Source: Nereocystis luetkeana (taxonomy: Eukaryota; Sar; Phaeophyceae; Laminariales; Laminariaceae). Taken from it: 64,000 bases of DNA. The stretch lies in contig JARUPZ010000003.1 of assembly GCA_031213475.1 (NCBI GenBank), forward strand, positions 9,202,509 through 9,266,508, given 5' to 3'. This document shows, piece by piece, positions 18,423 through 64,000 of this stretch. Below the pieces are notes generated by a model. The model was not told where the DNA came from and did no database searches. It saw nothing but the letters and a program-made list of their open reading frames with translations. The position numbers were made by a program, and so were the translations under genes. Each line of letters begins with the position of its first letter. The first letter of the stretch is position 1.

Positions 18423-21400
18423 AACTCCCTGCAACGTGACGTAAAGCAATGATGCTGCACTACGAGTGCAACTAACAGCCCCCCTACTCGGTGCTCAGCA
18501 CGAGACTAAATCACGACCAATATGTTGACAGACGAAATCTAGCATCAATGCTCATCACAAATTTCTGATACAAACGCCAGACTTGTTTTTATTGATGCTA
18601 AATATCAAAATCCTCGCAGTAAGTTCCGGACCTTAACACATCACTCAAATTCGTCAGGAAATACGGTGGAACTAAAAAGAAACCTTCGTCAGGAAATCAG
18701 TATGCTGTTATTCCGATGCTACATGGATGACCACAATATCCCATTGGAAAACAATCTTAAATGATGATGACGCACGTCGATATGTTTCCTATTTGAATTG
18801 GTTATCGGATTCTGTGCCAACTGCACTGCATCTTGGTTGTTCTCAAAAACTTTCATGCATGGTACGCCTCCAAATAAAACACCAAACATGCCTCATAGAA
18901 AGAGCTTCCTTGGCGTACTCAGACATGGCCACATACTCGGCCTCTGTGATTGAAAGCGTAACGCATCTCTGCGTCCAAGAAAACCAGCTTACTGCTGCGC
19001 CTCCACACATTACTACTCCATCAGATACTGACCTCCGATCGGTCGCCCTACCGGCATAATCCGCATCGGCAAATACCTCTAAATCTCATCCACAACCTCG
19101 TTGATAAGTAATACCAAGATCACTCGTGGTCCTCAAGTACTTCAAAATATTCAACGCTGCTCCCCAGTGCACGGATTTCGGTGCATGGGCATACCTGGCT
19201 ACTGCTCTCACGGCATTCGAGATATCGGGTCTAGTCTGGTTCGCAAGCCACATCAAGCTACCTACTACCTCGCGAAATGGCCAATTACCCTCAGGCTCAT
19301 CCCTCTCGAATACTTCAAGCTTCAGACCAACCACAGCCGGAATCGTCCGGTTAGAGACAATACCAAACTTCTCCACGATCTTGTCGGTGAAAGCCTTCTG
19401 TAAAATAGTCAATAAACCCTTGCTCTTTTCCCTGGAAAAATGGCATCCTGCATACCAGCGAAGTTCACCAAGATGGTCGATAGGAACTAGCTTATTCAGG
19501 CCCTCACAAAGGCGGTCACACCTTCTCTTACGTCCAACTGCGAAAATGTCATCTACATGTACGACAGCAATAGCAGATACAGAACCATTTTCAATCAAGC
19601 GCAGAACACATGCATCGGCAGCGCACTGCTCAAAGCCAAGAGTTTTCACGCGGGTGAGCAAACGACTGTGCCACGAGCGCGATGCTAGCCTAAGGCCGTA
19701 AAGACTGCGGTTCAAACGTACTACCTTACCAGACATGTTACCGTAGCCCTGTGGCAAACGCAGAAAAACATCCTCTTCAACATTCGACTGAACAAGCGCT
19801 TGCTCGGCATCGAAATTACACAAATCCAAATATAGTTCACACACTGTACGTAGCAGCCAGCAAACGGATGCAAGCCGCGGCGGGTATTGGGGCAAAAGTC
19901 TCGAAGTAATCTATTCCTTCACGCTGACTAAAACCTCTTGCTACTAGTTTTGCCTTTGCCTCCGTCACTCTCCCATGTTCGTCCGTCTTCCATGTAAATA
20001 CCCATTTCGCTGATGTCACGTTCGCACCCCTTGGCTGCTAAGCCTCGCCAAAAGTTCCCGTGTCACATAGACCGAGATACTCTTTTGCCGCCGCCTCGCG
20101 CCAGGCGTCCCTGAACTCGGATGCGGTCGCATAGGCGAACGAGGTCGGCGCAGACAGTTCGCCCGCCGGACACGTCGGCAATTTAGCAAGAGGCTTGCGA
20201 GGCGGGCGTTGCTCCACAATCGCCTCGGCAATGTCGGCTTGGTTCGTCAGCATCGACAACAGGCCCCTTCGATGGGCTCTGCTTTGCGCTCGCGTCCGCT
20301 CTGGTTATCGCTCATCGCCGTCTCCCGGCCCGCACAGGTGGTTGCCCAGCTGGCGAGTAGCACAGTATGACGATGGTTGCGGCGACGATGGCGGAGACGC
20401 CGTGGACGTTGGCGGTGTAGAAGGTCGTTTCTACTGCTGTTACGGCAGCGTCGGTGGCGTGGATGCCGGTTCCGGAGGGTAGATATTAACGAACTCCCCC
20501 TCCCCGGCCGGCTCGGGTAGCGTGAATGGCTCCCAAGGGTACGCCCTCGTCACATCGCGGGTATACACACACCGCGCCGGACGGAAGCTTGACTTGAATG
20601 ACGGCGACGGTGGTTGCTTCCGCCATTCAGGTAAAAACACATCTCAGCTTTGGGTTCCACCTTACTGTCGCGGCGAACACCGCAGTAACCGGGCTATAGG
20701 AACGGCGGCATTGACAGCGGCGGCACCGTGCCATAAAATCGGCTCCATGGCGAGGCACGGCCCGGGTTGGCTTCCGTGGCAGATCGGTTTAGCGCGTCAT
20801 TGGCCCAGAAGCACGCTTCGGCCTATAGAGAGGCATTCGCAGGCGTTTGAACGCCGGGAAAAAGGCACGGCGCCTCAAGACAGGCGGCCTGCGCGGCCTC
20901 CTGGGCAATGGCCAGACCTCTCTCCACCACACCGTTCAGCTGCGGCGTGTCCGGCGTGGTGAATTCTTGCCGGGTGCCGCGATCGTCACACAATTCCCTG
21001 ATCGCTCCACCACTAAACTCGCCCCCACCATCAGATCGGACGCACTCGACTACTGATGGCTTCGCGCTGTCACGAATATCGTTTAGGAACCGCCCGAATG
21101 TTGCACCGGCGTCGGACTTCTGCTTCATGAAATACGTCCAGCCAAAACGTAAGAAGTCGTCCTTGATGAGCATAATATAAAGTGCACCTCCAACGGACTG
21201 GGTGGGCTTAGGCCCCGCCAGGTCGATAAACACCCGTTGCAAAGGGCGCTCCGAGCGAGTGAGAGTGGTCTTTCGGAGAGGCTGGCGCTTCCCCTTGGAC
21301 ATCGAACACCCCCCACAAGGTCGAAACTTTCCTGTTAAGCGAAACCTCAGTTTCTTAGCAGTCTCATGTAAGATTCCGGGATGGGTGTGCGCATACGATA

Positions 21401-22935
21401 CATACATATCGTTGATGTCCATGGACCTAATGTGCACGGGCATTGTTCCGGGGGCAATGGTGGCGGCGGCAACCGGGGGTACCTCTACGACCCCCGATAC
21501 GACAGGCGCTGAAACAGCCTGCTGCTGATGTACCCTGCGTGTGGCAGGTAACTGGCTACCAACGTCATTTCTCGGGAAAACAAATCGCCCGGGCGTCACG
21601 TGGACACGGGCGGGATCAATGATCACGGCCTGCTGCTTCCCTACGGTGTGAAGAGAAAAACAAATTCACCCCCAGGCCAGGAACATGCGCCACGGTGTTT
21701 AACGTGACCACCACGTTTTCAATACTATGAAAAACCAAATATAATTTACCGTAACATGTAATGGGTAACATTTCGAGGCCATCCACGATCACCTTGTCGT
21801 TATTTGCAGAGGGGGGGACGCAGTCATACATGCCGGCACAATCAGCAGTCATGTGCATGCTGCTACCACTGTCGTTGATCCATGCCTCGCGATCTTTGTT
21901 AGTGCGAGAAAAATAGGATTGTCCCGTTAATCCATACCTGGTATTTACCAGACGGCACCAAGCACGCCATAAATTGTTGGGGGTGCTGGTGTCAACCGGA
22001 GGGAGAAGACGAGTACGTCGGTACCGTGGTGGACGTAGAGGTAGACGAACCAGCAGAAGTCGGTGGCGGAGGTGGCGGTGCGACGATTGCAGTATTGCCC
22101 TGCCCAACAGTACTCTTGGGATTTGGGGTGATAATAGCCGTGCACTCGGTGTGTCGTCCGGGTTGATTACACCTATAACAAATCACCTGAGGCCGGGATT
22201 GTGGGAAGAAGACCCCGTTGCTCCCTTTAAACGGCTGCCGCTCGGCTCAAGGCTGATGCTCTCTCTGGAGTGCCCCTCCCTCCGCGGGCACCACCGCGGC
22301 CACCCCTATTCCGATTGCTTCGGCGGCTGCCACCATACCTTGGCCGCCACAACCCTGAGCGCCGGCGAACAAGGCATTCTGGCGCCTCGCCGGCTTTTCA
22401 ACTTGCATTTCGGCTAAGCGGTCCCGAAGGATTTCCTCAAGCTCGTTGCGGGGGAGGTCGCGACGCCTGAGCAAAGCACAACATTCTGTGTCGTAGTCGT
22501 CAGTTAGATGGCGTACGAAATGACGGCGGAGCACAACCTCGGTTTTGTGGACATCGAAGCACGCCAGCATATTCCCGGCATCGTCTACGCGATCGCACCA
22601 TACCAACGGATCTTCCGCTTTTTGCATGTGGAGGTTCTCAAATTTGCGAGTCACAAATCTCGTTGGGCAACCCCTCTTCGGCTCAAACCAATCCTCGACG
22701 ACTTTCCAGCCGCCACCCGGCGACCCTGCCTGGAAGATCTTATAGGCCAGCGGAGCGAAACCTACTCCTTCGACCAAAATAGCCCAAGCGCGTGTCGCAT
22801 CGTCTATCTCGCGGGTGGAATGTCGTTGCCGCAGCTCGCTGGGCATGACTCTATCGTCCCCGACGAGGATTGGGTCAATTCGCGGCGCAATTGCTTCTCG
22901 GCAACCAAACATATATAGGTGCAACACAATCTTAA

Positions 22936-23024
22936 CCCCTTTAGAACCGCGGTCCCGTTTAGGGACAAAACTACTTGAAATTTGACTGGTTTGTCCCCAG
23001 AACGGGACGGCGGTTCTAAAAGGG
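22936..23024. mobile_element. piggyBac-like MITE inside copia-2 (unit A)
   Basis: An 89-base element flanked on both sides by TTAA (22,932-22,935 and 23,025-23,028). Its ends are inverted: CCCCTTTAGAACCGCGGTCC on the left and the near reverse complement on the right. The inversion continues through GTCCCG...CGGGAC and GGGACAAA...TTTGTCCCC, so most of it folds into a hairpin. TTAA targets and CCC-starting ends are typical of piggyBac-type elements. It has no coding capacity. Confidence 0.8.
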
Positions 23025-23451
23025 TTAATATTATTTCGCTACATCGGCTACTGTGGTGCTTCCCCGAGAAACTTCGGCACCTTTCGCCGGCTGGATATGC
23101 ACCTGATCGAACTTCAGGCGGTGGCGGACTCGATCGCTGTCCCCTGCTGCGGGCATCCTCGCTTGCCCCTTGCAGCGCCGCCAGCTTCGCGGCCTGCTCC
23201 GTCACCTGCGCGGATGAGCATCCATCGCGGTAGCCTAATCGACCAGTTGGAGCCTTTGAGCTGCAACCTGCTTCGTGAGCTCGTCGACCTTGCGCATCAG
23301 CGCTTTCTGGGACTCAGCCATCTGATGAACAGCCCTATCGTTCGCCTCGGTCAATCCTTCCGAGCGCGACCGTTCCTCCTAGATATATCCAACCGGATAT
23401 TACCAGCTGATCAGCACGCTAGCGCGTTCCTGATTCCACGGTATGGACAGA

Positions 23452-23701
23452 TAGACAAGCCGGAATCCTTCCCTCAGAAGGTACGTCGGAGGTGGGGGGA
23501 CTCCTTCTAGATAAATATATTAGAACGAAATCAAGCAGTTCGAGGAGTGCGCCGGTGTGCAAGCACGACGACATGATATAACACTCACCAGGTATCTCGA
23601 TACTTTTGTATGTAACGCCAATTGGCAAATGCCTACCAATATGTGCAACTCCCTGCAACGTAAAGTAAAGCACTGCTGCTGCCCTACGAGTACAACTAAC
23701 A
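23452..23701 (-). repeat. copia-2 5' LTR (unit A)
   Basis: 250 bases homologous to the split LTR at 12,147-12,341 and 18,428-18,477. The end at ...CAACTAACA is fixed by the purine-rich tract next to the partner LTR; the other end is set by loss of similarity and is less certain. Confidence 0.85.
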
Positions 23702-24113
23702 ACTGATTTTACCACCGGCTCCCCGCTCTCTCCTTCTACTCCCGACACTTGCGTGGGTATCCTCTCTCTCATGGTATATGTATTACCTGTACTGCTCGTA
23801 GAAGAGTCTGGCTTTGTCCAGTGCGGTATAAAAGTTCCACTCGTTGTTGTACGTCGTCTTCGCGTGTGCGGTAGAGACCGACTTTGCTTCTTCCCCTTGT
23901 TGGTTAGAAATGCAATATATGATATGTGTGAGTCCGAGTCACCAAAGGGATTACGGTCTTGCAAATCCAACGCGCATGTACATGGAAGTTGCGTGCGTTC
24001 CATGACGCGCCTGCGGGTGGCAGGGGAAGGAGCGCAGTCGGTCTCCGCCGCACTCCTGAAGACAGGGGGAAGGGGTAAACTACTACTGTAGCCTAGTCAG
24101 TCAGCGCGAACTA

Positions 24114-24286
24114 AGTAGCCTATTAATAGTAGGTCAGCCTACCCCTTCTTACCAACAAGACCGCGATATGTGGGGTGCGAGGTCTGGCGCCCGTTGACGA
24201 CGGCTAGCTGAGTAGCCTATAATAGTAGGTTATCTCTTCTAACCAAATCTGCGGGGCGGGGTCTAGCTCTTGTCGACGACGGCTCT
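24114..24286 (+). repeat. diverged two-unit tandem repeat (unit A)
   Basis: Units of about 97 and 76 bases. Both start AGTAGCCTAT, continue AATAGTAGGT, share CTTCTNACCAA and GGGG-GAGGTCT-like text, and end near GACGACGGCT. Also present at about 44,224-44,396 in unit B. Confidence 0.6.
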
Positions 24287-24808
24287 GCCCGAGGACGGCT
24301 GTGGGGCTTCATCGGTGGCGCTGCCAGAGCGCGATGGCACTGCCAAAGCGCCTCCCAGCATTCGGGCCACGTCGCCCACGACTTTTAGGTGGTTTTCTCA
24401 TCATAGTCGTGTAAGCATCGGCTAGCTGGTGCTGCAGATGTTCTCTTGCTCGTGCGCCGAGGTCTTCCCTACCCAGTTTGGAGTTTGGCATTTTCTGCGT
24501 GCCAACTCTGTACCGCGTGCTTTCTGAGGCTGCCTGAGCAACTCCCCGTCAGGGAGCCGCGCGCGTGCTGACCCTCTCCCCGACCGTGGCTCGACTTGAA
24601 CGAACGTGTTCTTGTCTAACTCCTGCCCCGGCGTTTAGCCTCAACACTGGCCCGTCGACCGCTCTCTCGGTCCTGCATTGGTGTGCACGTGTTTATATGT
24701 GCGCTGGTGGGGTGACGTTCCTGGTTCTGGCGCGTGGAAACTGAACTGACTGCTTCCTGTGGGTTTTGTTCTGTACCGAGAGGATAGACGGCCCTTTGGA
24801 AATGAACC

Positions 24809-24946
24809 TGCGGCGTTATCGTTACTGACGGATGGAGCGGAAGCGGGGTATGTGGCCCTCTACTCCTGCAAGTATGTGACCCTTCTGCGGAATCGTTACT
24901 GACGACTGACGCGGAGGTGGGTTATCTGGCTCTCTGCTCCTGCTGG
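24809..24946 (+). repeat. second diverged tandem duplication (unit A)
   Basis: Two units near 24,809-24,872 and 24,885-24,946. Both contain CTGCGG, ATCGTTACTGACG, GCGGA, GGGT-AT-TGGC and CTCCTGC. Also present at about 44,919-45,056. Confidence 0.55.
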
Positions 24947-25598
24947 TGTGCATACTAATGTGAACCCTAGCCTTCGGCGAGAACGGCACAGCCGCGACTG
25001 TTTTTTTCAAGTCCGAAGAGAGATTCTAGCCCTCTGTTCACATCATGCCTGCTGTACTGAATCCTCTGCGACCTCTGTCAGCGATGGGTAGAGCTGTACA
25101 CCTGTAGAGCGCTACAATACCTCTTGGGCCTGTTTGATGCACGCAGGGTATGGTAACTGGTCGCAATGTCGATACACCGGGTAGAGTCGCTAAAATATGG
25201 AGAGTACGTACCGTTATAATACTTATCTAATCGTCTGTAGCAGCAGTGCCGGGCACTACGGCGGTGATGCTTGCGTGTTGTACAACACTACTACAGCACT
25301 AGTCGGACGCGATGAGTGCAGCAATGGAAATAAACGGGTGGACACATACTGTCTGAGCCAGATCTCGGCAACACTTTCGATGCCTTTATTGTGCCATCCT
25401 GCTGGGTGCGTCCGCTTCTTACCGTGCATACTTACACACCAGGGACCGTTGGCTTGTTAGTGATTGACCAAATTGTTTTACGCACATGTAGTATAGCAGC
25501 GGCAGTAGTACATGTTGTATGCTGGCTGTAGAGCCAGTAGCAAACATCCTCCTAGTGATGTCGTCCTATCCATTGTGACCTTGTTTTTATTGGGACAG

Positions 25599-28500
25599 GA
25601 GGTGGCACCTACAATACCGGGCATGTCTTCCAGATCAAGGGACCAGGAGAGGAAACATGGGAGTCGGTATGCGACGAACTGATAACGCACTTCGGCAAGG
25701 GAGGGTACCGACTGCTGCGCAACAGTCGTACGCGGGTAAGAACGTACTTACTGCCCATTTCGTGTGCCCGAAGACGGAAAATAAATACTTCACTCTATTT
25801 TCATTGTTGCTTGTGCTGCGCTACCCACTACCTGGTAGACTTGACTGGCGCAAGACAACCAACAGCATCTGCGAGCGGTTTCGATTCTCGTCAGCAATTC
25901 TCATTCATCCAAGAATTATATTTTCAGCGTAATGAGAGTTTCATGTGCTCTTAGACATATTCTACATGGCGTGAGGTTCGCTCCGGAGAATGCTGACGAG
26001 ATTCGGCGGTGCTTCGCGCCCAACAGTAGTCTATATTGTGTTGGTTATGTAGCGCAAGATACCCAACGCCTCCCACGGTGTGGTCACCTCGTATATAGTG
26101 TTGTGAAAACCATGCTCTTGTCCCAAGCATACCGCATCTACGTTGGCTGATACGGCGATGCATATATATATATCTAGAGTACACGTGTACCGGGCATACC
26201 GCAGTAGCCAAAAATTGTTCTGGGTTGGTGCCGGACCAGAGCAAGCATAGCACAGTTGGTGCCGACATCTATTCAAAGTACCAGACACTGGTACGTGTCA
26301 CGCAACCTGCAGGAAGCCGAATTCCGGTCCCCGTGTCGTTTTTTTGCCTTATTTAATGCAATCTCGCCGGCAGCTACCGAAAAAGAAGGGGGATAACTCG
26401 CCTGGACTTGCTCGACACTCGAGCATCCGCGTGGAATGCGAAAGTTTCGGGCCACCCAGAGAGACCGTCAAGGCTGAAAACGCCAGTGGCCGCCGTATAC
26501 GATCGTCGAAGAAGGTGATCTGCAGCCTGAAATTCTAGTGCCGATTCGGCTGGACCCCCCCCCCCCCGTGTTAGAGGAGGCGAAGTAATGCGACGTAGAG
26601 GAGTTTGGTTCTCTCCTGTAGATAATCGCGAGAAACAATATTAGCAAAAACAAAAAGTATGCAGAGCATGGAAAAAACGTACCGAGCGCCTAAAGGTTGG
26701 AGATGTCTCTGTCAGGAGTAGGAACGGTGCTCCGTCTCGAACGGGATGCGTGGTCAATGGTGAACTGGGTAAGGCAAGCAACATATGAGCGCCCCGCCCC
26801 CCTAGAGGAAGGGCACAACGTTGACTACTGAAGTGTAGGCGCATGCTACAGTATGGGTAGCGCCTGCTTTTTCCGAGGCGTCTCCGCTTGCGGACTTCTA
26901 CTCCTGTTTCAACTTGTACAGCGTATCATATGTGTATGATACTTTCGCGTGCTGATCTCACATACTTTTTATTTTTTGTCTGAGGGGTACGATTAGTTTC
27001 AGTTATAATGTGTGCTATTTACGTTCGTGTGTTTTTTCCTCCTGACGTAATAATTCACTCCAGAGTTATTGGAGCCTGGCCTGTCACCACGGACTGCATT
27101 TTATTGTGGCGATAGGTTATTGTAAGAACATCAACAGCAACAACAACAACCTACTTCGAGGGAAAATGCAAACTTAGTCCATGCGCAATTCCATGGGCTA
27201 CATAGGTATCTAACGAATGGTTGTATAACACGTGATGGGTTCAAACTATATCGGGTAGAAAGTTCGAGAGTTGAGGAGCTCCGTCAGTGATTAATGTTCG
27301 GGCCCGCAAGTGCAACGTCTACCGTAGCGCGGGCCCGTAGGGTCTCATCATTGATTGCGGCATATCGCATCGTCTCGTCTATGGCAGCTTGGTTTTCACA
27401 CGTCTCTTCGTGCCTCGCATCGACTGTTGGGTGTTTTTGCAGGTTGGCTGCGGTTTCAGGCTCAACATCAATTGGAACAAGTCGGGCACGGGCCCGACTA
27501 TCGGCAAGGTGCGTCAAGCGGTGCATATGCGTCGGTACGAGTGCGCGAGGGTTGACGACATTAGTGTGTCGAACAGGCCGCCCGTATTTGCGGTCGACGG
27601 CAGGTCCTATTGGCTGTTTTGCGTAGCTTTCGTCCATGTTGACCGGAGTTTATCACCCTGAACTTCGGCGATAAGTTGAAACGTTCCTCCCGCTCGTTGT
27701 GCAGCGTCAACGAGCTCCTGACTTTTTGTGACCAAGCAGCTGAAGATCGGCTTGAGAACTATTCAAAGTCTGTTGTGCTGCTACTTGCTGCGTAGCTGTT
27801 CTGTGACAATGTGTTGCATCTCTCATGATACTTTTATCGCCGCATAGAAAAAACTTGTGACATTTGTTTTTTAATCTTCCAGGTGTGTCTGGTCCACAAT
27901 CACGACCCTCCTGCGGAGGGACCAGGGCTCATGAGTTACGAGGATGTGAAGGCTTCGGAAGGCGCGATTCGGGATCTGTGCAAGACCAACCTGACCACTG
28001 TCAAAATCTGCCGTTTCCTGGAGCGAGATAACCTCGCCCTTGGCCCTGTTGGGAGGATGCAGGCGAGAGTGGAAGTTATTGTTAATGTGTACCCATCATC
28101 GCTGTGCTTGATTGACTCGGTGGGCCCATTCCGTCACCGCTATGTCCTGGTAGGCTTAACCCTAATACGCTTTTCGTTCGAGGGCGACAGATACAGCAAC
28201 CCTTACACGTAAAAAAACAGGCATAGTGTAAGGATGCTGTTGTTGGCACGGCGTTGCATGCTTCGCCAAGATGTTCCTCGTTATGGGCCTGTCGTTGCCA
28301 GTATACGTGCGAGTGCTGACGTCAGCTGGTGGGCATATCCAGTCCATGTTTCACCGGAACGTGCACACGTTACCGCTGTGATGCCAGATGGTGCAGTCAT
28401 GTCTACGACGTGGTCCGGCCGCGACAAAATGTTTGATAGTACACTATCAAGACCTATGCCAATGGAAAAGAGAAGTCCAAGAGTTTTTTTTCAAACATAT

Positions 28501-31384
28501 TGCTTTAAAAAAACAGCCAAAAAATTCCTCGTACCGCCGCTGTCGGAACAAAAAGAAAAAATGTTTGATTTTTTTAAGTATTTTTTCCCAACGGCTGGAG
28601 GCGGCGCAATTTGTTTTTTTCTGGTTGCAAATTGTCAACACCCTGATAGAAACAAGCTCGTGCGACGATCGACGCCCGATCTCAACATAGACGCAGCCCA
28701 CGGCCAACTCTCTCGGTCTCCGGCAAGGCCAACGAATGTAGATGACGACCTCGAAGATATCAGGTGGATCCATGGTCTAGGGGGCGAGAGCTTGCCGGCG
28801 GCGTCCTACGGTATCCTCCCCAACCTGAAAAAAGGTCTATTTTTTGCCATCCGAGACGGATGGAGAAGTTGTGTCTTCTCTATTTTGCACACCAGCGGCC
28901 ATTTGTTTTTTGTCATACGCCCGCAACATGACAGCGGCCATGGTGCGAAGACGGTGAGCCTAGGGTGGGTCGGAGCCCCTAACGAGCGCACTCCGTTCAG
29001 AATTCATGACGCAGTCGTTGGTTTTGTCGATCGATGACTGTCAAGGACTCGGAATCTCGCCGCTTCAAACCAAACATCCGCCTGAGTTTTTCTCAAGCCG
29101 ATGTTGGCCCAACATCGGCCCCAGATTTGCCTTTTTCGGGCTTTTCCAAAAGTTTGGAACTTTTTTTTTTTGTAAACGTGCCCATAGGAAGCGTGTTCTA
29201 AAAATTTCTGGAGTGTATCTTTGCAATTCAAACTATTTATTGATACTTCGCTGTACCATTGGCATAGGTCTAATACCCCCTCAGTGCATTTATCTTCCCG
29301 AGAAATATCCCAGGCCCGTCGGGGTTGGCCCTCTTGGGACATGAGAGGGGAAAGATGACTATAAAAAAGTAACGATTACAGCAACGGCCACTGCGTGATT
29401 GGGGGAGGGTACAAATGGGTGTCGGAGTTACAATGCAATGAAGTCACGAGGCACGGGCGCAACAATATCCTACCCGCACTGCTGGGTGGTCATGCTGCTC
29501 GTGGAGGGTTTATAACGCCAAAGTTGATATTGCTTTGGTAGCTATCCCAGGGTCCCAGAGAGGATAAGGTTACGCAGGATTTACGTCAAGTGGATTTCCA
29601 GCGTTTGCCGAAAGTGGACCAAGTCGTGGACTGCTGGACAGCCCTCACATGTGTAGGACTTGCTCGTATTGCACCCCGCGCCCGACCTCCTGTTGGGGAC
29701 TGCACGGATTGTAGTACACTATATCTCCACCTGAATCCGTGGGTAGGAAACAAACGTCCGCAGGTACTTACGCCGCCAACGGGGTGCGTGCAAACACTTC
29801 GATCAATATTCGTCGAACCCAGCCATGACTGATACCCTGTCGTTTTCACGTGCCTTTGTTTTTACTCGCAATCCGGCACCGCAGGTGGCGAATGCAGTGA
29901 GGAGGATCCGAGCGGAAACGAACGACGCACAAAATGGCAGTGAGGACCGTGTGTCGATCAACCAGGACACCCAGAAAAATATTGAGCCTCCCGCGGAGAG
30001 TGCGGTCGGGCATTCCTTTGCCATCGGGGGCGCAGAATGGGAGGAGGGGCACAGTGCGAAACGTGTGGTGGCAGCAATCGTGTACGCCGACCTCATGGCC
30101 GTGGGGAAGAAGTTCGCGACCCAAGCGTCCAGTCAGGTGCGCACCTTGGAGGCCGCCGAGAGGATTATATTGGAGCTAAAGGCCGCCTTTGACGTAGCGC
30201 TAACGACAGAGCTGGCCGCCGCCAAGCGTGCAGACGCGAAATCGAAGGTGGTCTCCTCGGGCGCCCTTCCCCCCGCTTCTCGCAAGACTGTCGCTCCAGC
30301 AACTGCGCGCGCCATCTCAGCAACCGCAAGCGCCCGAGCGTCCGCACCTGCGGGCAAGCGCGGGCGCGGGGTGAGTGGAGGGAGGGCTCTGGGGGGTTGT
30401 AGGGGGCGGGGAGGGCGGGGACGACAGGGAAGGCGGGGCGGGCGGGGCGGGCAAGCGGCGCCCTTGTGTGTTCACGAGGAAATACTCGACAGAGGAAGTG
30501 GGAGCCCTGATAACGTCGATGGTGCTGAGAAAGGTGCTGATAAGACGGCCGCTTCTACAAGACCTGCTGCGCCAGAATTCAACCACGTTGGCGGAATGGG
30601 TGGCGTTGGCGTACTTCCTGAAGGACCAGCCGCTGTTGCAGCGTCGTCTCAGAATGTCCCCACTGGAGCCATCGATGTTGCTATCGACGCCGGTCTGAAC
30701 AACGGGGATGTAAACTTGCCTGGGGAGTGCCCGAGCACAGATTCTCGTCAGGCGACAGGGGCAACCGGCTCCGCCTTTCATCCTGGAAGAGTCGGCCGAA
30801 GAGACTGCCCCCTCCCACCATCCGGCCGCTGCAACATTGAGACGATTGCTGGGGTTGGCAGCTGTGGGTCCGACCAGGCGTGGAGTGGCGTTGGAAATGT
30901 TGGTAGTGGCCATGGCTCCAATCGGGCGTGGGGCGGTGGTGATGGTCATGGAGGCCATGTGGTGGGGATTGGTGGGAGTGTTGGTGTTGGCTTCGATGGC
31001 TCCAATCGGGCTGGGAGTGATGGTGTAGGAGTCGGCCAAGGCTCCATTCAGCTAGGGAGTGGTGGTAGCGTTGGTGACCATGGCTCCGGCCTGGCGCGGA
31101 AGGGTTGTGGTGTTAGCGGATACGGCTCCGATCAGTCAGGGAGGGGTGATGGTGTTGGTGTCTATCGCTTCGGTAACGAGGGTAGTGTTGGAGTTGGCGT
31201 AGGCAGTGGCGGTGTTGGTGTTGGTTCCGACAGCAATCAAGTCGGGAGTGGTGGTGGAGGTGTCTATGACAGAGCGGCTTCGTCAGGCATGACCGTATCT
31301 GAAGATATCTGCTCTCCTCTCCGTTCCAAGGAAGTCGGATCGGCCAAACGACGTAAAAGCTCAAGGGTAGAGGGTAGAGGGTAG
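25599..31384 (+). CDS. FAR1/MULE-type zinc-domain protein with Gly-rich tail (unit A)
   Basis: Probable DNA-binding nuclear protein. Exons: 25,599-25,735, 26,374-26,514, 27,443-27,508, 27,883-about 28,062, 29,885-31,384 (stop). The internal joins are phase 0; the first exon is incomplete upstream. About 673 residues are visible. Exons 1-4 give the pattern of FAR1 / MULE N-terminal domains: a TWESVCDELITHFGKGGYRL segment, then Cys in IRVECESFG, Cys in VGCGFRLNINW, and CLVHNHDPP supplying His-x-His. A helical segment (IRDLCKTNLTTVKICRFLE) follows, then VANAVRRIRAE. No MULE transposase or SWIM motif follows. Instead there is an Ala-rich helix, an RGG-like patch and a degenerate Gly-rich repeat. 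The exon 4 donor is uncertain (GC at 28,063 or GT at 28,069), and a strong GTGAGT at 30,371 could split the last exon. A domesticated transposase-derived factor is my inference. Confidence 0.62.
30840..31260 (+). repeat. coding minisatellite, Gly-rich (unit A)
   Basis: Imperfect units marked by GGCTCC followed by variants of AATCGGGC and GGGAGTGGTGG, spaced tens of bases apart. In frame they encode degenerate Gly/Ser/Val repeats such as GSNRAGSDGVGVG. Same sequence at about 50,950-51,370 in unit B. Confidence 0.6.
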
Positions 31385-33525
31385 AGGGAAGCGCCTTGGT
31401 CTTGTGCGTCAGCCGCTTTCACGTAACGAATGATAAGCTCATTCGCACAGTTCTATCCCTAGTACGGATCCTGCTAAATCGGAATATTGCGTAGTCGGCA
31501 ATTGCTGCCATGCATTTTGCGGGAGGTTCGCTGTTCACTTTCTCCGTTGTCAGGTGTGAAGTGTGCATACACACATCATAGGCATATATTTCGGCAGCCC
31601 CACCAATGCTTACTATTTTTTTTACTTCTTTGCTGTTAACTGTACATCGAGAGGGGGCGCTTCGGAACACTTTCCACTCTACTCACTTATGGTGCGCATC
31701 ACTGTTTGTGCCACGATGCGACCACACCATTTAGGTCTAGCTTCGATCGAGGTACGTCGTACGTAGACACCAGGTAGATAGATTTGTGTAGTTGGTATTC
31801 CCCATTTAATTTGAAAGCGATTTTCTTGCAAATATGCACAGAGTGGGGGGTTGCGCAACTGCCTGTGGTTTGCAGGGACGAGGAAGGCCAGCAAATATTA
31901 ACAGATACCAGGTACCAGGTATTAATAGCAAGATTGCAAGGCGACCCACTCGAAGACGAAGAACGAGCACAGACACATACGTAGATGATACGAAGACAGC
32001 AGTGCGAACAGAGAAAAAACGGAAAGGCGAGAAATACGTCGCGGAGGGCTGTTGCTTTGGCCGAAAAATACGCTTGGTTGCCCCTTGGGTCTGTTCGGAG
32101 TGGCAGTTCCCAACCGAAGTCTTTCCCCTATTAAACCCCAACTCCAACCCTCCCCACCACCCCGATCGTCATTCACGCACGCAAGTACTCGCACGGTGCG
32201 CGTTTGTCGAGACTGATCAAGTGGCTTGGGTGACGAACGAAACGTGTTACCTATTAATGGGCTTGATGTTACATTGCCGCTGCTTGCTGGTGTGTGTGTT
32301 TTCATTTGTATATAAATTGTATCTGCGTTCTAGCTTTCAAGTGACTAGGTGTATATACGTACGACCTCAGAGTCTATTGTTTTTGGCCGCTTCCGTACGG
32401 TTCTGAAAATATTGGACAAACAAATTCCTCCATACATGAGCATCTGTCTAATAATAGGGAACAGCAAGGCAACGCATATCGTTGGCCCTGTGCATTACTG
32501 ATTTTCCTTTAACTTCGCGGGTTTCGTATGATTTTCTTGTCCGGTCGATTTTGGACACAAGGTACCACACCTCAGATCATCGATTCCCTCTTGATCTACT
32601 CCATTTTTCAAGGCAGATAAATCCGAGCATAGATCTACGATCGTACTGCTGTAGTACTATCCCAAAAATGGTATGATCTACAGCAGGAGGAGCTGGTCTT
32701 GTCGGGTAGGACCCATATAATCCCACGACGACCTACAGCACAGCAGAAGTAAGAAGATGTATGCTTCCTGGGTTGGATACGCACGTACTATGCAGATCCT
32801 GCACAACCTCTAACTATACGGCAAACGGGGAACTAGGACGATGTGTCCGAGGTGTGCAAGGTGCAAGGTACCCCTCGATCTTCCGTTCTTCCAATTTCCT
32901 ATGATGTGCGTGATGTGTGTTTTCATCACCTCCAACAAACGCAAGTGTTTGTTTTTGAAAGAAACAAATCAAGGTACTTGGTACAGGTTGTATGTGCCGG
33001 TACTCTACATTCAATTCCAATGGTGCACGTACCAGCAGCCACTGGATATTTCATATTTCTCCTTCTATTTAGGTGTATCTTGTGAATAGAGCAAACGCAA
33101 TGTTGCCGAGGTATCATAGGCGCACACATCATACCGCCGGGTAAACCGTGAGTTGGTGTGCCGTGGTGTGTGCTTCAAACTGGGCTATGACGGTAAAAAA
33201 AACTCACACGTAGCCCATAGCTTCGAACACACCGGGTCTTTTAAACTAATTCGCACTGTCAATATACCGCCTCCTAATACTCTGAACTCCCCACCAGTTT
33301 CTTTTCCGTAACAATTCCCTCTCTCGCCCGCAGCGGTACGTAGCTGTGCCTTGCCGGTTGGGTGTTTGATTCATCAAGAGGACGCGGTTGTATCATCTTG
33401 AATATCTAGTCGAACTTTTCTGCGCGTGCTGTTCGGGATTCTCGTGCTCTCGGGATAGTTAAATCGCAAGGAGAAGCCGCCTTGCGTCGCAAGCAAAGAC
33501 ACAACAGGAGCAGCCAGGAGTCAGG
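31385..33525. other. spacer between the FAR1-like gene and beta-adaptin (unit A)
   Basis: Nothing recognisable as a gene. Two overlapping TACCWGGTA words occur at 31,906-31,921. Short frames (up to 190 codons at 31,834-32,406) show no domain. It presumably contains the 3' end of the FAR1-like gene and the beta-adaptin promoter. Unit B equivalent is 51,495-53,636, differing by one extra base near 52,848. Confidence 0.5.
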
Positions 33526-34390
33526 ATGGCGGGCAGAGCTGTGCGGGCACCGGGAGGAAGCGACTGGCGGCTCTTTACAACAACGAAAAAAGGTACCCGT
33601 GGTGGAAGAGAGCAATATGCGTAAATCACGGAAGCACCTTGCCTGTTGTTGTCTGTGGGGCTTGGTCGGCACGATGCCGAGATTTGTTCCTCTCTTTCGA
33701 AGAGCCGGCATTCCGATAAGGACGCTGCTGGAACACTCCCAGCTCCCAGCAGATGTTCCGCCCCACCGCCCTGTTGATGAGGTGACGTCTTACATGGGCA
33801 ATCAGGGCTTTTGTCGTATATTCCAGGTAAACATCGTCCGACACCTGTCAGGGAGACCTATGGACTGCTGTGGGGTAACAGGGCAGATGTGTTCCATCTT
33901 CGCTTATCCTCCGAAAGAACGGCTGTGCGCGGCGGTTCCCTCTGCCTGGCTTCGGGCCTTGGGGAAGTTGTCATGGATGATGGGACTTCTCAACACCCTG
34001 TTTTACATCCGAAGTTCCTGGAGATGGTTCATCTGATGACGATGCATCCAAAGGGTGCACACGCGGTAAACCTGCGGATACAGACAGCAGCAGTGGAACA
34101 TGGTTGGGCTGAATGCAGATAGTCTCTCTGCACCCCGAACTGTTTGTTGTGTTTCTGTGTTGTGACCGTCACCCGCCAGTTTACGAGTTACGAGTTCGTA
34201 TATACCGCGTGCATAACAGCTTCCAGTATCGTAGTGTGAATTCGCCGTTCGCTGGATTTTTTCGATATTTGTATCATGATACTATTAATATTAGTAGTGG
34301 TATTAAATATCATACGAGTATTGGCGTACGAGAGGTATTTCTTCTCGTATCGCGGGTCGTCGTTCGGACGCGACCGGTGTAAAACGACTT

Positions 34391-34392
34391 TG

Positions 34393-34472
<80 letters not shown>

Positions 34473-34474
34473 CC
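34391..34474 (+). repeat. (TGCC)21 microsatellite in adaptin intron 1 (unit A)
   Basis: Pure TGCC repeat of 84 bases. Unit B has the same length at 54,502-54,585. Confidence 0.97.
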
Positions 34475-35105: not shown

Positions 35106-35291
35106 CCTTCCTTCCTTCCTTCCTTCCTTCCTTCCTTCCTTCCTTCCTTCCTTCCTTCCTTCCTTCCTTCCTTCCTTCCTTCCTTCCTTCCTTCCTTCCT
35201 TCCTTCCTTCCTTCCTTCCTTCCTTCCTTCCTTCCTTCCTTCCTTCCTTCCTTCCTTCCTTCCTTCCTTCCTTCCTTCCTTTCTTCCTTCC
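35106..35291 (+). repeat. (TTCC)n microsatellite in adaptin intron 1 (unit A)
   Basis: About 186 bases of almost pure TTCC, a strict pyrimidine strand that lies 91 bases before exon 2. It is 24 bases (six repeats) longer than in unit B. Confidence 0.97.
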
Positions 35292-38615: not shown

Positions 38616-38647
<32 letters not shown>

Positions 38648-55378: not shown

Positions 55379-58300
55379 TGCCTTCCTGCGTGTGGTGCAT
55401 TCGTTTCGTCGCTTTTTCTACGTTTGTACTGCCGCGACGGGACACTCTGTGGCTTTGTGCGCGAGCCAGGCGAGACTCATGAGCTCCGCGAGGAGCTCAA
55501 CTCTCCCAACCGCGACAAGAAGAAGGATGCTATCAAGAAGGTGAGTAAGCGGGATCAACACCATTTTTTCCCCCTGTTTTTTCGTTTGCGAGACGGCCCA
55601 AGGGCTGCCGGCGCGGTGCAGACAGCGCAGGCCGCTTTGCATGTGCCCACGTCGGTCTATTGTCGCAAGGTTAAGGTTTCCCTTGAGGATGCGGTTGGCT
55701 TGAATTCCGGGCGTGTCGCGAGTTGAAAAGGGGGGACACTAGCGTTCACATGTCTTACGAGCGTGTGTGAAGTTGGCTGCGGTTCGTTGTGCCGCTGCTG
55801 TTGGACTGCTGTGCTCTGCGCCGGTGCCTTGAATTCCAGAGAAAGTTCGGGTTTAATCCGCCCAGATTGTAGGATGGCATACACACGCGGACACACGGAA
55901 GCATCGTTCGTGCATGACATCAAGGGAGAATCTTGAAGCGTGGCTGCTGGTGTACCGTGGCTGCCTCAAACAACAGCGTTTTTGAGGGTGGCGTGGTACG
56001 GCAAATACAGCAGCGGAGCAAAATAAGCTGCTGGCAATTTTTGGGTTTCCATGGCCCTGCTCGGCTCGGCGGGCGAAACTCAGTTTCCTTGAACAGGAGG
56101 TGGCTCGCGCGACTTTGGGCGCCCAAAGCAAGCGCCACGGAGCTCGGCTGAGGCCCAAATGTGTGCCGTAGTTGAAGTGCGGGGCGTCTGCGTGTTCCGC
56201 AACCGGAAGCGCGAGAAAAGACCTGCGAGCGGCGGAGGAAAGCCTCCAAATGTGCAAAACGAAATATGTTTTTGGTACCTGTACAAAGAGGAATGCGTGG
56301 TAGAGACTTCGCGTTGTGTAGACAGCATGGGTGCTTACTACCGCTGTATGTACCATGTACCAGTATTCTGGTAGTATGTGTTCGTTAATTTATCTTTATG
56401 CGCCAATATCCGTTGCATATGTGTCGACACAGATAGCTGTTGCCGGAGCGCACTACTGTTACTAACTACAGTAGGCCATTCATCAACTCCGTCTAGAACG
56501 AGCAAGCCTCGCCTGTCAGTTAGCGTGCGCCGTCTGCCGTCGCAGCGTCACTCGAGCGCATGGTGATACACGTCGCTTCACAATGGTCTTGAGACGGGAA
56601 CACCCGCACCCGCGGTGTTGCCGGCCCGGGCAGTGCGTGAGCCCTCTCGTTTATCGACAGCGATGTCGACCGGTGCTTTTGGACGCGACGCGCGGGTAGC
56701 TACTTTAGCTGCCATGCCGGCAGTGCCAAGGAAACGCTACGCCAAGAGTTAATAAAACAGTACTAAAAATAGTACCTGTTAGTCTGGTTGTGTCACTGGC
56801 TGCGGATAGAAAAACCTATCTGTCGTCGTTCGGGCGATGGCGGCGCCGCGCAAGGCGTCAACTTGGGCCCATTTGCCTAACCGTTCCCGGACGTTTCTAG
56901 CCTGCGGGTAGAATGTTCCCTGCAGACAGAGCAGCTCATTTGACGGAACGTCTACGTGTCGGAACCAAACAGAGCCACCACGTCCAGGCTAATTTACACA
57001 TTCATACGTATCCATCGCCTGGCGAGTCTTGTAGCGGGGTCTCGCCCCCCCTGCTCCCCCCCCCACCCCCCCTATGCCCCCTTCCCTCCCCCTCCCTACC
57101 AGCACCTCGACTTCCTATCCGCCGACATATTCCAACCACATTATGAGACTACTGCTGTACTGTACGAAGCATACGATGCGTGCGTTTCAACGAATTTGCT
57201 GCCGACAGGTCATTGCGAACATGACCGCAGGGAAGGACGTGGCCATGCTTTTCACAGACGTCATCAACTGCATCCAGACGGGTGAGAGAGCGGTGTCTAA
57301 ACTGCAGCCCCCACCCCCGCTTCGGGTTTCGTCGGAGGCGTGTTTGGCGGACTTACTTTCGTGCTTTCTGCGTGTTTTGTCGGTTTCGGTATCGCGACAA
57401 AATGTTAGCTCCTCATGACCGCAGTTTCGTGCGGATAGACCCGCGTACAGACAGCAGCAAGGCCCGAAGAAGGACGGAGCTTGTGCACACGACTCCGACA
57501 CCTGTTTGGGTCAGCTTCGAAAATAGAGCCGGTGTAGCAGCCCCGCACCGCTACCACCCGCGCGTCGCGAAACGTTGTCGCCTCGATGAGCCTTGGCCCG
57601 CCTTGCTTAGAGCACTTTCGTGACGAGGGAAAACCCCGTGCACGTTCGCGGCCGAACGGCGGTCGCCCAACTGATGTAAGCACCAATTTTGATATTTTTG
57701 AGATTCACGTGTTTTTTAGTGTTCGTTTTTTTGCGTTTTTATGAGTGCTTCCGTCGAAACTGGCAATTGAGACTGGCGGACGAGCCACGGCGTTTGCTCA
57801 CGTCTCGACGACAAAGACCACGTACCTCCTGCTGTTGACGACGAGAGCGCTGGAATATGGCGGCGAAAAAGGTGCCGTTTGGTGGCGTAACGCTCTCCAG
57901 GTGGTGCCCACGTCGCGAGGCTGTATACATTTTGAGGGTCGGTCGGCCGTTCAAGGGAAGTTTGTCTCACCTGTACGAAGGAGTCCAAGCCGTCCTTTTG
58001 GATAGGGTCGATTGAACACCGAACCCATACCCCCCCCCCTCTGCCCTCCCTTCCACGCGACGGTATTGACCTCTCGCGTCGTCCGAAACCACCCCTCCCC
58101 GACAACGACTACGGCACCTGCGCCGCCGCGCCGGGAGCAGAGAACATCGAGCTGAAGAAGCTGGTGTACCCGTACCTGATCAACTACGCCGAGACGCAGC
58201 CGGAGCTGACCCTGCTCGCGGTGAAGACGTTCGTGAAGGACGCCAACGACCCGAACCAGCTCATCCGCGCCCTGGCGCTGCGCGCGATGGGCTGCATCCG

Positions 58301-58702
58301 GGCGGAGAAGATCATGGAGTACCTGTGCGAGCCGTTGAGGAAAGCACTTCGCGACGAGGCAAGGACGGCCGCGCGCTGGACACCTGACGGAGTACTTTTG
58401 TTTTGCGGCTGTATCTATTGAGTTGTGCATTTTTACGTACTGTAGTACTGTGTCCTCTTACCTCTTCTTTTTGTGTGCTGTTTGCTGTTGCTGTTGTGAT
58501 CGTTGTTGCTGTTGCGTTTGCTTTTTTTTTGTGTGTCTTGTCATGCTCGTGGCTTGTCGCTCGCGGCGTTGCAGGCGTGCCCACGCCGTGGCTTCATGTT
58601 TTGTGTCCCCGCGTTGGTGTTAAGACAGAAAACTGCTGCCCGATGACTTCTTGTTGACGCCCGCTGGCCCGTGAACCGCCCCCCGCTCTCTTACGGGCTC
58701 TT

Positions 58703-58734
<32 letters not shown>

Positions 58735-58735: not shown

Positions 58736-59176
58736 CGTTTGCGAATCCGTTTGCGTGTCCCCGTGTTATCGGCATGTGTTCGCAGGACCCTTACGTGCGC
58801 AAGACCGCCGCGGTGTGTGTGGTGAAGCTGATCGACATCAACGCCGACCTCGTGGAGGACCAGGGGCTCCTGCAGATCCTCAGGGACCTCATCTGCGACC
58901 CCAATCCGACGGTGTGAAGCGGGCTCGCGAGCTCCCCCAGTCTGTTTGTGTGCCCTTCCGTCCGTCCGCTCATCCTTTTGGTTTTGTTTTTTTGTCCTCA
59001 CCCATGAAAGCGAGGGCTGGATGGCCCGCCATCCTCTCCCTTCTTCGTGCCTTGACCTTGTTTTACCCTGCTGCCTGCCGTTAGACCGTGTCGGCCCGTT
59101 GTACGGCTACTGGTGGGGCTGGAAGGTTTTCGCGGTTGTCGTTGATTGGTTGGTCCCGCTGCTCTCGGCGCTCTGT

Positions 59177-59237
59177 CCTCCGATCGGTCGCCCACACATT
59201 ACTACTCCATCAGATACTGACCTCCGATCGGTCGCCC
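59177..59237 (+). other. unit B/C junction, identical to the A/B junction
   Basis: Same join, with the 17-base copy at 59,177-59,193 and the native one at 59,221-59,237. Identity of the two joins shows that both units descend from one rearrangement followed by copy-number increase. Confidence 0.92.
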
Positions 59238-62200
59238 TACCGGCATAATCCGCATCGGCAAATACCTCTAAATCTCATCCACAACCTCGTTGATAAGTAA
59301 TACCAAGATCACTCGTGGTCCTCAAGTACTTCAAAATATTCAACGCTGCTCCCCAGTGCACGGATTTCGGTGCATGGGCATACCTGGCTACTGCTCTCAC
59401 GGCATTCGAGATATCGGGTCTAGTCTGGTTCGCAAGCCACATCAAGCTACCTACTACCTCGCGAAATGGCCAGTTACCCTCAGGCTCATCCCTCTCGAAT
59501 ACTTCAAGCTTCAGACCAACCACAGCCGGAATCGTCCGGTTAGAGACAATACCAAACTTCTCCACGATCTTGTCGGTGAAAGCCTTCTGTAAAATAGTCA
59601 ATAAACCCTTGCTCTTTTCCCTGGAAAAATGGCATCCTGCATACCAGCGAAGTTCACCAAGATGGTCGATAGGAACTAGCTTATTCAGGCCCTCACAAAG
59701 GCGGTCACACCTTCTCTTACGTCCAACTGCGAAAATGTCATCTACATGTACGACAGCAATAGCAGATACAGAACCATTTTCAATCAAGCGCAGAACACAT
59801 GCATCGGCAGCGCACTGCTCAAAGCCAAGAGTTTTCACGCGGGTGAGCAAACGACTGTGCCACGAGCGCGATGCTAGCCTAAGGCCGTAAAGACTGCGGT
59901 TCAAACGTACTACCTTACCAGACATGTTACCGTAGCCCTGTGGCAAACGCAGAAAAACATCCTCTTCAACATTCGACTGAACAAGCGCTTGCTCGGCATC
60001 GAAATTACACAAATCCAAATATAGTTCACACACTGTACGTAGCAGCCAGCAAACGGATGCAAGCCGCGGCGGGTATTGGGGCAAAAGTCTCGAAGTAATC
60101 TATTCCTTCACGCTGACTAAAACCTCTTGCTACTAGTCTTGCCTTTGCCTCCGTCACTCTCCCATGTTCGTCCGTCTTCCATGTAAATACCCATTTCGCT
60201 GATGTCACGTTCGCACCCCTTGGCTGCTAAGCCTCGCCAAAAGTTCCCGTGTCACATAGACCGAGATACTCTTTTGCCGCCGCCTCGCGCCAGGCGTCCC
60301 TGAACTCGGATGCGGTCGCATAGGCGAACGAGGTCGGCGCAGACAGTTCGCCCGCCGGACACGTCGGCAATTTAGCAAGAGGCTTGCGAGGCGGGCGTTG
60401 CTCCACAATCGCCTCGGCAATGTCGGCTTGGTTCGTCAGCATCGACAAGGTCCCTTCGATGGGCTCTGCTTTGCGCTCGCGTCCGCTCTGGTTATCGCTC
60501 ATCGCCGTCTCCCGGCCCGCACAGGTGGTTGCCCAGCTGGCGAGTAGCACAGTATGACGATGGTTGCGGCGACGATGGCGGAGACGCCGTGGACGTTGGC
60601 GGTGTAGAAGGTCGTTTCTGCTGCTGTTGCGGCAGCGTCGGTGGCGTGGATGCCGGTTCCGGAGGGTAGATATTAACGAACTCCCCCTCCCCGGCCGGCT
60701 CGGGTAGCGTGAATGGCTCCCAAGGGTACGCCCTCGTCACATCGCGGGTATACACACACCGCGCCGGACGGAAGCTTGACTTGAAGGACGGCGACGGTGG
60801 TTGCTTCCGCCATTCAGGTAAAAACACATCTCAGCTTTGGGTTCCACCTTACTGTCGCGGCGAACACCGCAGTAACCGGGCTTTAGGAACGGCGGCATTG
60901 ACAGCGGCGGCACCGTGCCATAAAATCGGCTCCATGGCGAGGCACGGCCCGGGTTGGCTTCCGTGGCAGATCGGTTTAGCGCGTCATTGGCCTAGAAGCA
61001 CGCTTCGGCCTATAGAGAGGCATTCGCAGGCGTTTGAACGCCGGGAAAAAGGCACGGCGCCTCAAGACAGGCGGCCTGCGCGGCCTCCTGGGCAATGGCC
61101 AGACCTCTCTCCACCACACCGTTCAGCTGCGGCGTGTCCGGCGTGGTGAATTCTTGCCGGGTGCCGCGATCGTCACACAATTCCCTGATCGCTCCACCAC
61201 TAAACTCGCCCCCACCATCAGATCGGACGCACTCGACTACTGATGGCTTCGCGCTGTCACGAATATCGTTTAGGAACCGCCCGAATGTTGCACCGGCGTC
61301 GGACTTCTGCTTCATGAAATACGTCCAGCCAAAACGTAAGAAGTCGTCCTTGATGAGCATAATATAAAGTGCACCTCCAACGGACTGGGTGGGCTTAGGC
61401 CCCGCCAGGTCGATAAACACCCGTTGCAAAGGGCGCTCCGAGCGAGTGAGAGTGGTCTTTCGGAGAGGCTGGCGCTTCCCCTTGGACATCGAACACCCCC
61501 CACAAGGTCGAAACTTTCCTGTTAAGCGAAACCTCAGTTTCTTAGCAGTCTCATGTAAGATTCCGGGATGGGTGTGCGCATACGATACATACATATCGTT
61601 GATGTCCATGGACCTAATGTGCACGGGCATTGTTCCGGGGGCAATGGTGGCGGCGGCAACCGGGGGTACCTCTACGACCCCCGATACGACAGGCGCTGAA
61701 ACAGCCTGCTGCTGATGTACCCTGCGTGTGGCAGGTAACTGGCTACCAACGTCATTTCTCGGGAAAACAAATCGCCCGGGCGTCACGTGGACACGGGCGG
61801 GATCAATGATCACGGCCTGCTGCTTCCCTACGGTGTGAAGAGAAAAACAAATTCACCCCCAGGCCAGGAACATGCGCCACGGTGTTTAACGTGACCACCA
61901 CGTTTTCAATACTATGAAAAACCAAATATAATTTACCGTAACATGTAATGGGTAACATTTCGAGGCCATCCACGATCACCTTGTCGTTATTTACAGAGGG
62001 GGGGACGCAGTCATACATGCCGGCACAATCAGCAGTCATGTGCATGCTGCTACCACTGTCGTTGATCCATGCCTCGCGATCTTTGTTAGTGCGAGAAAAA
62101 TAGGATTGTCCCGTTAATCCATACCTGGTATTTACCAGACGGCACCAAGCACGCCATAAATTGTTGGGGGTGCTGGTGTCAACCGGAGGGAGAAGACGAG

Positions 62201-63888
62201 TACGTCGGTACCGTGGTGGACGTAGAGGTAGACGAACCAGCAGAAGTCGGTGGCGGAGGTGGCGGTGCGACGATTGCAGTATTGCCCTGCCCAACAGTAC
62301 TCTTGGGATTTGGGGTGATAATAGCCGTGCACTCGGTGTGTCGTCCGGGTTGATTACACCTATAACAAATCACCTGAGGCCGGGATTGTGGGAAGAAGAC
62401 CCCGTTGCTCCCTTTAAACGGCTGCCGCTCGGCTCAAGGCTGATGCTCTCTCTGGAGTGCCCCTCCCTCCGCGGGCACCACCGCGGCCACCCCTATTCCG
62501 ATTGCTTCGGCGGCTGCCACCATACCTTGGCCGCCACAACCCTGAGCGCCGGCGAACAAGGCATTCTGGCGCCTCGCCGGCTTTTCAACTTGCATTTCGG
62601 CTAAGCGGTCCCGAAGGATTTCCTCAAGCTCGTTGCGGGGGAGGTCGCGACGCCTGAGCAAAGCACAACATTCTGTGTCGTAGTCGTCAGTTAGATGGCG
62701 TACGAAATGACGGCGGAGCACAACCTCGGTTTTGTGGACATCGAAGCACGCCAGCATATTCCCGGCATCGTCTACGCGATCGCACCATACCAACGGATCT
62801 TCCGCTTTTTGCATGTGGAGGTTCTCAAATTTGCGAGTCACAAATCTCGTTGGGCAACCCCTCTTCGGCTCAAACCAATCCTCGACGACTTTCCAGCCGC
62901 CACCCGGCGACCCTGCCTGGAAGATCTTATAGGCCAGCGGAGCGAAACCTACTCCTTCGACCAAAATAGCCCAAGCGCGTGTCGCATCGTCTATCTCGCG
63001 GGTGGAATGTCGTTGCCGCAGCTCGCTGGGCATGACTCTATCGTCCCCGACGAGGATTGGGTCAATTCGCGGCGCAATTGCTTCTCGGCAACCAAACATA
63101 TATAGGTGCAACACAATCTTAACCCCTTTAGAACCGCGGTCCCGTTTAGGGACAAAACTACTTGAAATTTGACTGGTTTGTCCCCAGAACGGGACGGCGG
63201 TTCTAAAAGGGTTAATATTATTTCGCTACATCGGCTACTGTGGTGCTTCCCCGAGAAACTTCGGCACCTTTCGCCGGCTGGATATGCACCTGATCGAACT
63301 TCAGGCGGTGGCGGACTCGATCGCTGTCCCCTGCTGCGGGCATCCTCGCTTGCCCCTTGCAGCGCCGCCAGCTTCGCGGCCTGCTCCGTCACCTGCGCGG
63401 ATGAGCATCCATCGCGGTAGCCTAATCGACCAGTTGGAGCCTTTGAGCTGCAACCTGCTTCGTGAGCTCGTCGACCTTGCGCATCAGCGCTTTCTGGGAC
63501 TCAGCCATCTGATGAACAGCCCTATCGTTCGCCTCGGTCAATCCTTCCGAGCGCGACCGTTCCTCCTAGATATATCCAACCGGATATTACCAGCTGATCA
63601 GCACGCTAGCGCGTTCCTGATTCCACGGTATGGACAGATAGACAAGCCGGAATCCTTCCCTCAGAAGGTACGTCGGAGGTGGGGGGACTCCTTCTAGATA
63701 AATATATTAGAACGAAATCAAGCAGTTCGAGGAGTGCGCCGGTGTGCAAGCACGACGACATGATATAACACTCACCAGGTATCTCGATACTTTTGTATGT
63801 AACGCCAATTGGCAAATGCCTACCAATATGTGCAACTCCCTGCAACGTAAAGTAAAGCACTGCTGCTGCCCTACGAGTACAACTAACA
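59192..63888 (-). mobile_element. copia-2 fragment (unit C)
   Basis: Third copy of the same truncated element, with 5' LTR at 63,639-63,888. Left part resembles unit B, right part resembles unit A. Confidence 0.9.
63123..63211. mobile_element. piggyBac-like MITE (unit C)
   Basis: Same 89-base hairpin element with TTAA flanks in the third, partial unit. Confidence 0.8.
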
Positions 63889-64000
63889 ACTGATTTTACC
63901 ACCGGCTCCCCGCTCTCTCCTTCTACTCCCGACACTTGCGTGGGTATCCTCTCTCTCATGGTATATGTATTACCTGTACTGCTCGTAGAAGAGTCTGGCT

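Follow-up and report, generated by a model that had tools for sequence, protein, structure and literature searches.

A three-unit head-to-tail array in the Nereocystis luetkeana assembly, with templated joins, a hybrid middle unit and truncated beta-adaptin copies that may be under positive selection

The assembly of the brown alga Nereocystis luetkeana contains three adjacent units in the same orientation, each running from the middle of a decayed copia retrotransposon (copia-2) into an intron of a beta-adaptin gene. We consider it probable that this array goes back to one repair-type duplication, which gene conversion and unequal crossover later reshaped; the truncated adaptin may in addition have come under positive selection. 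An array of this type is an ordinary, known kind of structure, whose record is here unusually complete, and the pattern of substitutions in its exons is the interesting part. Among the literature matches listed on tandem or segmental duplication in brown algae and on partial duplicates of adaptin, none describes such a case.

The window, i.e. the whole stretch of DNA analysed, spans 64,000 nucleotides (C3:9202509-9266508, contig JARUPZ010000003.1) of a genome of 465,085,209 bp in 1987 contigs. A further 40 kb of right flank was fetched, giving 104 kb in all with no N gaps; extended coordinates continue the window numbering. Self-BLAST of the window aligned 19003-43923 with 39105-64000 at 99.67% identity across an alignment of 24,932 positions, and 19003-23813 with 59192-64000 at 99.77%. 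These are the coordinates at which the sequence-only reading had seen the block 19,003-39,104 repeat at 39,105-59,191 and begin again from 59,192. That reading had counted at least 2.2 copies of a head-to-tail amplification; the amplification stands, and the assembly has three copies, the last unit reaching 15.6 kb past the window end:

19003-39104: repeat unit A, leftmost, 20,102 bp; its left side joins native copia-2
39105-59191: repeat unit B, middle, 20,087 bp; left part mostly C-like, right part A-like
59192-64000 in the window, to about 79,641 in extended coordinates: repeat unit C, followed by native beta-adaptin intron

The units share a novel join, and native sequence lies at both outer ends, as in a head-to-tail segmental tandem duplication; the three-unit repeat is real in the assembly. 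Native copia-2 lies to the left of A and native beta-adaptin to the right of C, which bears out the direction proposed earlier for the event. Three probes were searched against the 465-Mb genome. The copia start of the unit matched three places near 100%, with the next best at 87% (40 of 215 candidates scored); beta-adaptin exon 3 matched three places, all inside the array (six of six candidates scored); and window positions 27300-28299 matched three places (three of three candidates scored). No fourth near-identical place was found in the genome by these three probes.

The repeat also covers a whole gene that had been called FAR1-like. The family name found no support, as none of the three single ORFs tested gave a FAR1 or MULE match, or any other Pfam family, with exons taken singly; a string containing HNH in this gene may suggest FAR1. 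In the window, no Rfam family reached its gathering threshold and scanning detected no tRNA. To the left of the array, two pairs of dispersed repeats share about 91-92% identity (2258-2584 with 9645-9984, and 9452-9610 with 11801-11954).

The left boundary of the array falls inside copia-2, which is itself split by a second element:

12342-18422, minus strand: copia-1, an LTR retrotransposon nested in the copia-2 3' LTR, outside the repeat unit
12144-23701, minus strand: copia-2, decayed, split by copia-1 and severed at 19003 by the repeat boundary

Copia-1 has TG...CA ends, a 5-bp target duplication (AACTC), RVT_2 and Gag domains, and LTRs at 12342-12578 and 18179-18422 that differ by 4 substitutions in 237 aligned bases. 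The copia-2 LTR pieces (12144-12341 plus 18423-18477, and 23449-23701) show 25 differences in 246 aligned bases, and this higher divergence fits the nesting of copia-1 in copia-2. Homology to the copia-1 pol crosses 19003 in unit A, up to query residue 478, and stops at the join in unit B, at residue 386; the left end of the original locus is thus fixed. The copia-2 frame had been described as running smoothly across 19,003 in unit A only. The homology does so, but the frame is interrupted by stop codons. Relatives of the copia-1 pol were found neither in viral contigs by a pattern scan nor in phages by tblastn. A scan of genome contigs returned a copia pol with 93% identity to the copia-1 pol on contig JALZUO010000045.1, which is filed under an Oligoflexales bacterium MAG and is probably host-DNA contamination of that MAG. 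The copia-1 coding frame carries a 72-base tandem repeat of 2.1 copies at 14816-14964. Within copia-2, an imperfect palindrome of about 105 bases at 22928-23032 is 80% identical to its own reverse complement and is perhaps a small inverted-repeat element; in the right flank, strings resembling its translation occur near 94.2, 96.3 and 97.4 kb.

At the other end, the unit closes within the beta-adaptin gene, of which units A and B retain just the first exons:

35382-35456, plus strand: beta-adaptin exon piece, unit A, 1 changed codon relative to C
37122-37196, plus strand: beta-adaptin exon piece, unit A, 1 changed codon relative to C
38053-38271, plus strand: beta-adaptin exon piece, unit A, 8 changed codons relative to C, all nonsynonymous
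38699-38827, plus strand: beta-adaptin exon piece, unit A, 3 changed codons relative to C, all nonsynonymous
55469-55543, 57209-57283, 58140-58358 and 58786-58914, plus strand: truncated beta-adaptin exons, unit B

These four pieces, the only ones found in A and B, encode 164 residues matching AP-1 beta (E = 8.7e-73), and an immediate stop codon follows 38699-38827 if the intron is retained. The first four pieces match AP-1 beta in both A (246.6 bits) and C (275.8 bits). To the right of C, up to about 95.2 kb, Adaptin_N was detected in six of ten ORFs and B2-adapt-app_C in two of ten, several single exons scoring below the curated cut-off; an Adaptin_N trunk together with a beta appendage characterises the beta subunits of AP-1/AP-2. 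Unit C therefore apparently leads into a complete beta-adaptin gene, and the earlier description of 3'-truncated copies is upheld, with first exons only in A and B and the rest of the gene to the right of C.

The two internal joins between units carry a short insertion copied from nearby:

39090-39105, plus strand: templated join A/B, 16 bases copied from copia 19032-19047 and flanked by adaptin intron and copia 19004
59177-59192, plus strand: templated join B/C, identical to the A/B join

The joins are identical in the 100 bases compared on each side. Where the native intron of adaptin, as seen in C, has CTGTCCTCGGATCGATC, the internal joins read CTGTCCTCCGATCGGTCGCC and then CACACATT, and the copia at 19032 reads CCTCCGATCGGTCGCC. 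The source of the insert begins 28 bases off in the copia, and entry is at a CCTC microhomology. Across the 104 kb, on both strands, the 16-mer occurs only at 19032, 39090, 39134, 59177 and 59221. Microhomology combined with a short insert templated from the flank is what defines a join of polymerase-theta type or of replication template-switch type. We thus read the joins as a templated-insertion scar, from which the polymerase theta pathway may be named; a replication template switch would leave a similar scar, and the data do not separate the two. By the simplest path, the adaptin end would have annealed at CCTC in the copia, 16 bases would have been copied, and the end would then have slipped back to 19004 and continued onward.

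Duplications of this kind are known from Caenorhabditis elegans. In the excerpts of the two reports used here, brc-1/brd-1 mutants form tandem duplications, most of about 10-20 kb, via polymerase theta-mediated end joining, and helq-1 duplications range from about 100 bp to 10 kb with joins said to bear polymerase theta hallmarks (PMC7368036; PMC8654963). The array resembles them, as far as those excerpts go, in its head-to-tail copies and its microhomology, and worm deletion joins carry nearby-copied inserts (PMC7368036; PMC8654963). Unlike the duplications of the brc-1/brd-1 and helq-1 mutants, it represents one event in a natural genome, with a putative pathway named from the scar.

The three units are a mosaic of one another. 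The sequence-only reading names neither this mosaic, nor the insert at the joins, nor the protein-changing exon differences described below; the mosaic and the exon differences come to light only with the flank to the right of the window. Units A and B differ at 29 places, 27 of them within the first 6.7 kb (binomial p = 2e-11), so that an even spread is ruled out; no substitution separates them over the last 13.4 kb. In the three-way alignment, the odd unit out is A at 8 substitutions and one indel in 19284-20806 and C at 21806; in 23928-25673 it is A at 7 substitutions and C at 24931 and 25128. Two tracts depart from this:

22278-23840: A equals C and B differs, with 10 substitutions and a 10-base indel; interpreted as gene conversion
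25674-29524: 3.85-kb tract in which A, B and C are equal, with 0 differences; the switch point of B lies within it

Given the divergence of about 0.5% between A and C to its right, the identity of the second tract has a chance probability of 2e-8; it may mark a recent conversion or a spot where an assembler could cross over. From 29525 to 39104, C stands alone at every substitution (55 in 29525-39087), and the indels of this right side also mostly single out C, the exceptions being position 32724, where A is without one base and B matches C rather than A, and a CCTT run of three different lengths, in which A and B differ by 24 bases.

When an unequal crossover takes place within a tandem duplication, the middle unit becomes a hybrid, its left part derived from the right-hand parent and its right part from the left-hand parent. 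Unit B has this composition: at the sites of A/C substitution it equals C at 15 of 18 in 19003-25673 (and A at the other 3), and equals A at 55 of 55 in 29525-39087. The order of B and the polarity of its two halves thus support unequal crossover. The three exceptional sites on the left and the 32724 indel deviate from what a crossover alone would give, and the tract of A/C identity would require an additional conversion.

Alternatively, an assembly error, a concern already raised in the sequence-only reading, may have left one unit too many: the genome would carry two true units, or a pair of haplotypes each with two, and a loop walked twice or a haplotype switch in the 3.85-kb tract would account for the third. 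B does turn from C-like to A-like within the very tract where all three units are equal, the lack of substitutions between A and B in the final 13.4 kb agrees with an artefact no less than with a recent event, and a double pass through the tract would give the same gross order of A, then a Y-left/X-right hybrid, then Y, where X and Y are the left and right original units. A pure loop, however, predicts that the left part of B equals that of C, and 13 substitutions and one 10-base indel separate them; it also predicts equality of B and A on the right, where we found the 1-base indel at 32724 and the 24 bases in the CCTT run. The middle unit is hence no exact recombination of the other two, with 14 departures in its left part and 2 in its right part, although haplotype mixing could still explain these departures. 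In addition, the probes found no stray near-identical copy, all three matching the array only (40 of 215 candidates scored for the copia-start probe), and a haplotype switch would presumably still need a real two-unit array.

The direction of change at individual sites also bears on this alternative. For polarisation, each site was compared with 1-5 further copia-2 copies, at some sites only 1-2; positions 22278, 22679 and 23372 and those to the right of 23701 lie outside the polarisation. Derived bases are common to B and C at 20599, 20806 and probably 20264, to A and C at 22317, 22878, 23606 and 23673, and to A and B at 21806, a single site where the mutation may have occurred repeatedly; B alone is derived at 23586 and probably at 23517. 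Each pair of units thus shares derived bases at a different place, which points to exchange between separate sequences and argues against an artefact. We regard the assembly explanation as unlikely, and unit B as probably present in the cell.

In the history that we favour, break repair or a template switch would have linked an intron of beta-adaptin with the middle of copia-2, copying 16 bases of nearby copia as the join formed and leaving X and Y head to tail. These would then have diverged by about 0.5%. An unequal crossover in the 3.85-kb identical tract, between Y of one chromatid and X of another, would have produced three units, in which A is X, B is Y on the left and X on the right, and C is Y; gene conversion would have shifted further tracts among them. 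The hybrid middle unit is that of unequal-crossover triplications in general, from which the array differs by the extra exchanged tracts overlaid on it. Only C continues into the rest of beta-adaptin, and A and B are left with exon pieces for a fragment of at least 164 residues and solely amino-acid-changing substitutions. Unit C is longer by about 432 bases at 74836-75272 (extended coordinates), a stretch that ends in an (AAC)n run and is missing from A and B; it had no match in the sequence compared and is possibly a mobile element, or else reflects a deletion in A and B.

In the adaptin exons, the divergence of A/B from C is about six times that outside them. Over their 498 bp, A/B and C differ at 14 sites in 13 codons, and all 13 codons change the amino acid (dN 0.037; 0 changes at 116 synonymous sites). 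The excess was noticed after the fact and counts are small, but exons differ at 14 of 498 positions against 41 of 8970 non-exon positions in 29525-39087 (OR 6.3, p = 6e-7), and a local control over 37122-39087 gave 13 of 423 against 8 of 1537 (p = 7e-5). A control open frame at 29747-31381 has 4 synonymous and 5 nonsynonymous codons. Of the 13 changed codons, 12 encode in unit C the residue found in human AP-1 beta, and none does so in A, as judged by eye from the alignments. A rate of nonsynonymous change above the synonymous or neutral one, here post hoc and from small numbers, is what selection on a partial duplicate would give, and the A/B fragment is possibly under positive selection, for a changed or a disabled form. 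Tentatively, and at somewhat below even chances, we suggest that a truncated beta-adaptin was born with the duplication, that positive selection has been shifting it towards a new role or towards a form that no longer poisons the AP complex, and that recombination spread it to a second unit.

The truncated copies could instead be plain pseudogenes, the exon excess being due to chance or to a locally raised mutation rate. Truncation has removed most of the protein, the all-nonsynonymous pattern taken by itself has a simulated probability of 0.018, and some replacements look disruptive, such as the leucine to proline at 38083, which puts a proline in a helix and looks damaging rather than improving. 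The absence of a stop codon from the fragment is a weak sign, a stop being expected in only 31% of simulations. Against decay stand the exon divergence, about six times that of neighbouring non-exon sequence in both the local and the overall comparison, and the concentration of human AP-1 beta residues in C. Neutral decay should not outpace the adjacent introns, which makes selection on the fragment the preferred reading, and the pseudogene explanation, while a serious one, seems to us doubtful. Conversion from another beta-adaptin gene could also place changes mainly in exons. Such a donor was rejected, since exon 3 is found at only three places in the assembly, all in the array (six of six candidates scored); an old paralogue should moreover have brought synonymous changes too, of which none is seen, and this origin is highly improbable.

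The protein-changing pattern has precedents in EXOV and HvARM1, as the portions of the two reports consulted describe them (PMC8824575; PMC6092874). EXOV of Arabidopsis is a 5' partial gene duplicate with 22 replacements in the partial copy against 3 in the parent; a McDonald-Kreitman test was reported as positive selection, no sweep was found in the portion consulted, and the pair also has 20 synonymous differences, with an overall Ka/Ks of 0.486 (PMC8824575). The algal fragment is likewise a duplicate of the 5' part of a gene with replacements concentrated in the partial copy, but it has no synonymous differences and is known from sequence alone (PMC8824575). HvARM1 of barley, a partial duplicate of an armadillo-repeat E3 ligase, is like the algal fragment a partial copy of a helical-repeat interaction protein, and differs in that its function was tested (PMC6092874).

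Much of the history of the array is still legible, from the repair scar at its joins and the hybrid nature of its middle unit to the tracts exchanged between units and a neutral clock inside the array. If the reading of the truncated adaptin is true, it would be a partial-duplicate gene near its birth, for which the non-exon sequence of the unit serves as the clock. Selection on the fragment, if real, would show how a new short protein can emerge from a core trafficking gene shortly after a random break, and the array would then allow adaptation to be tested against escape from dominant interference.
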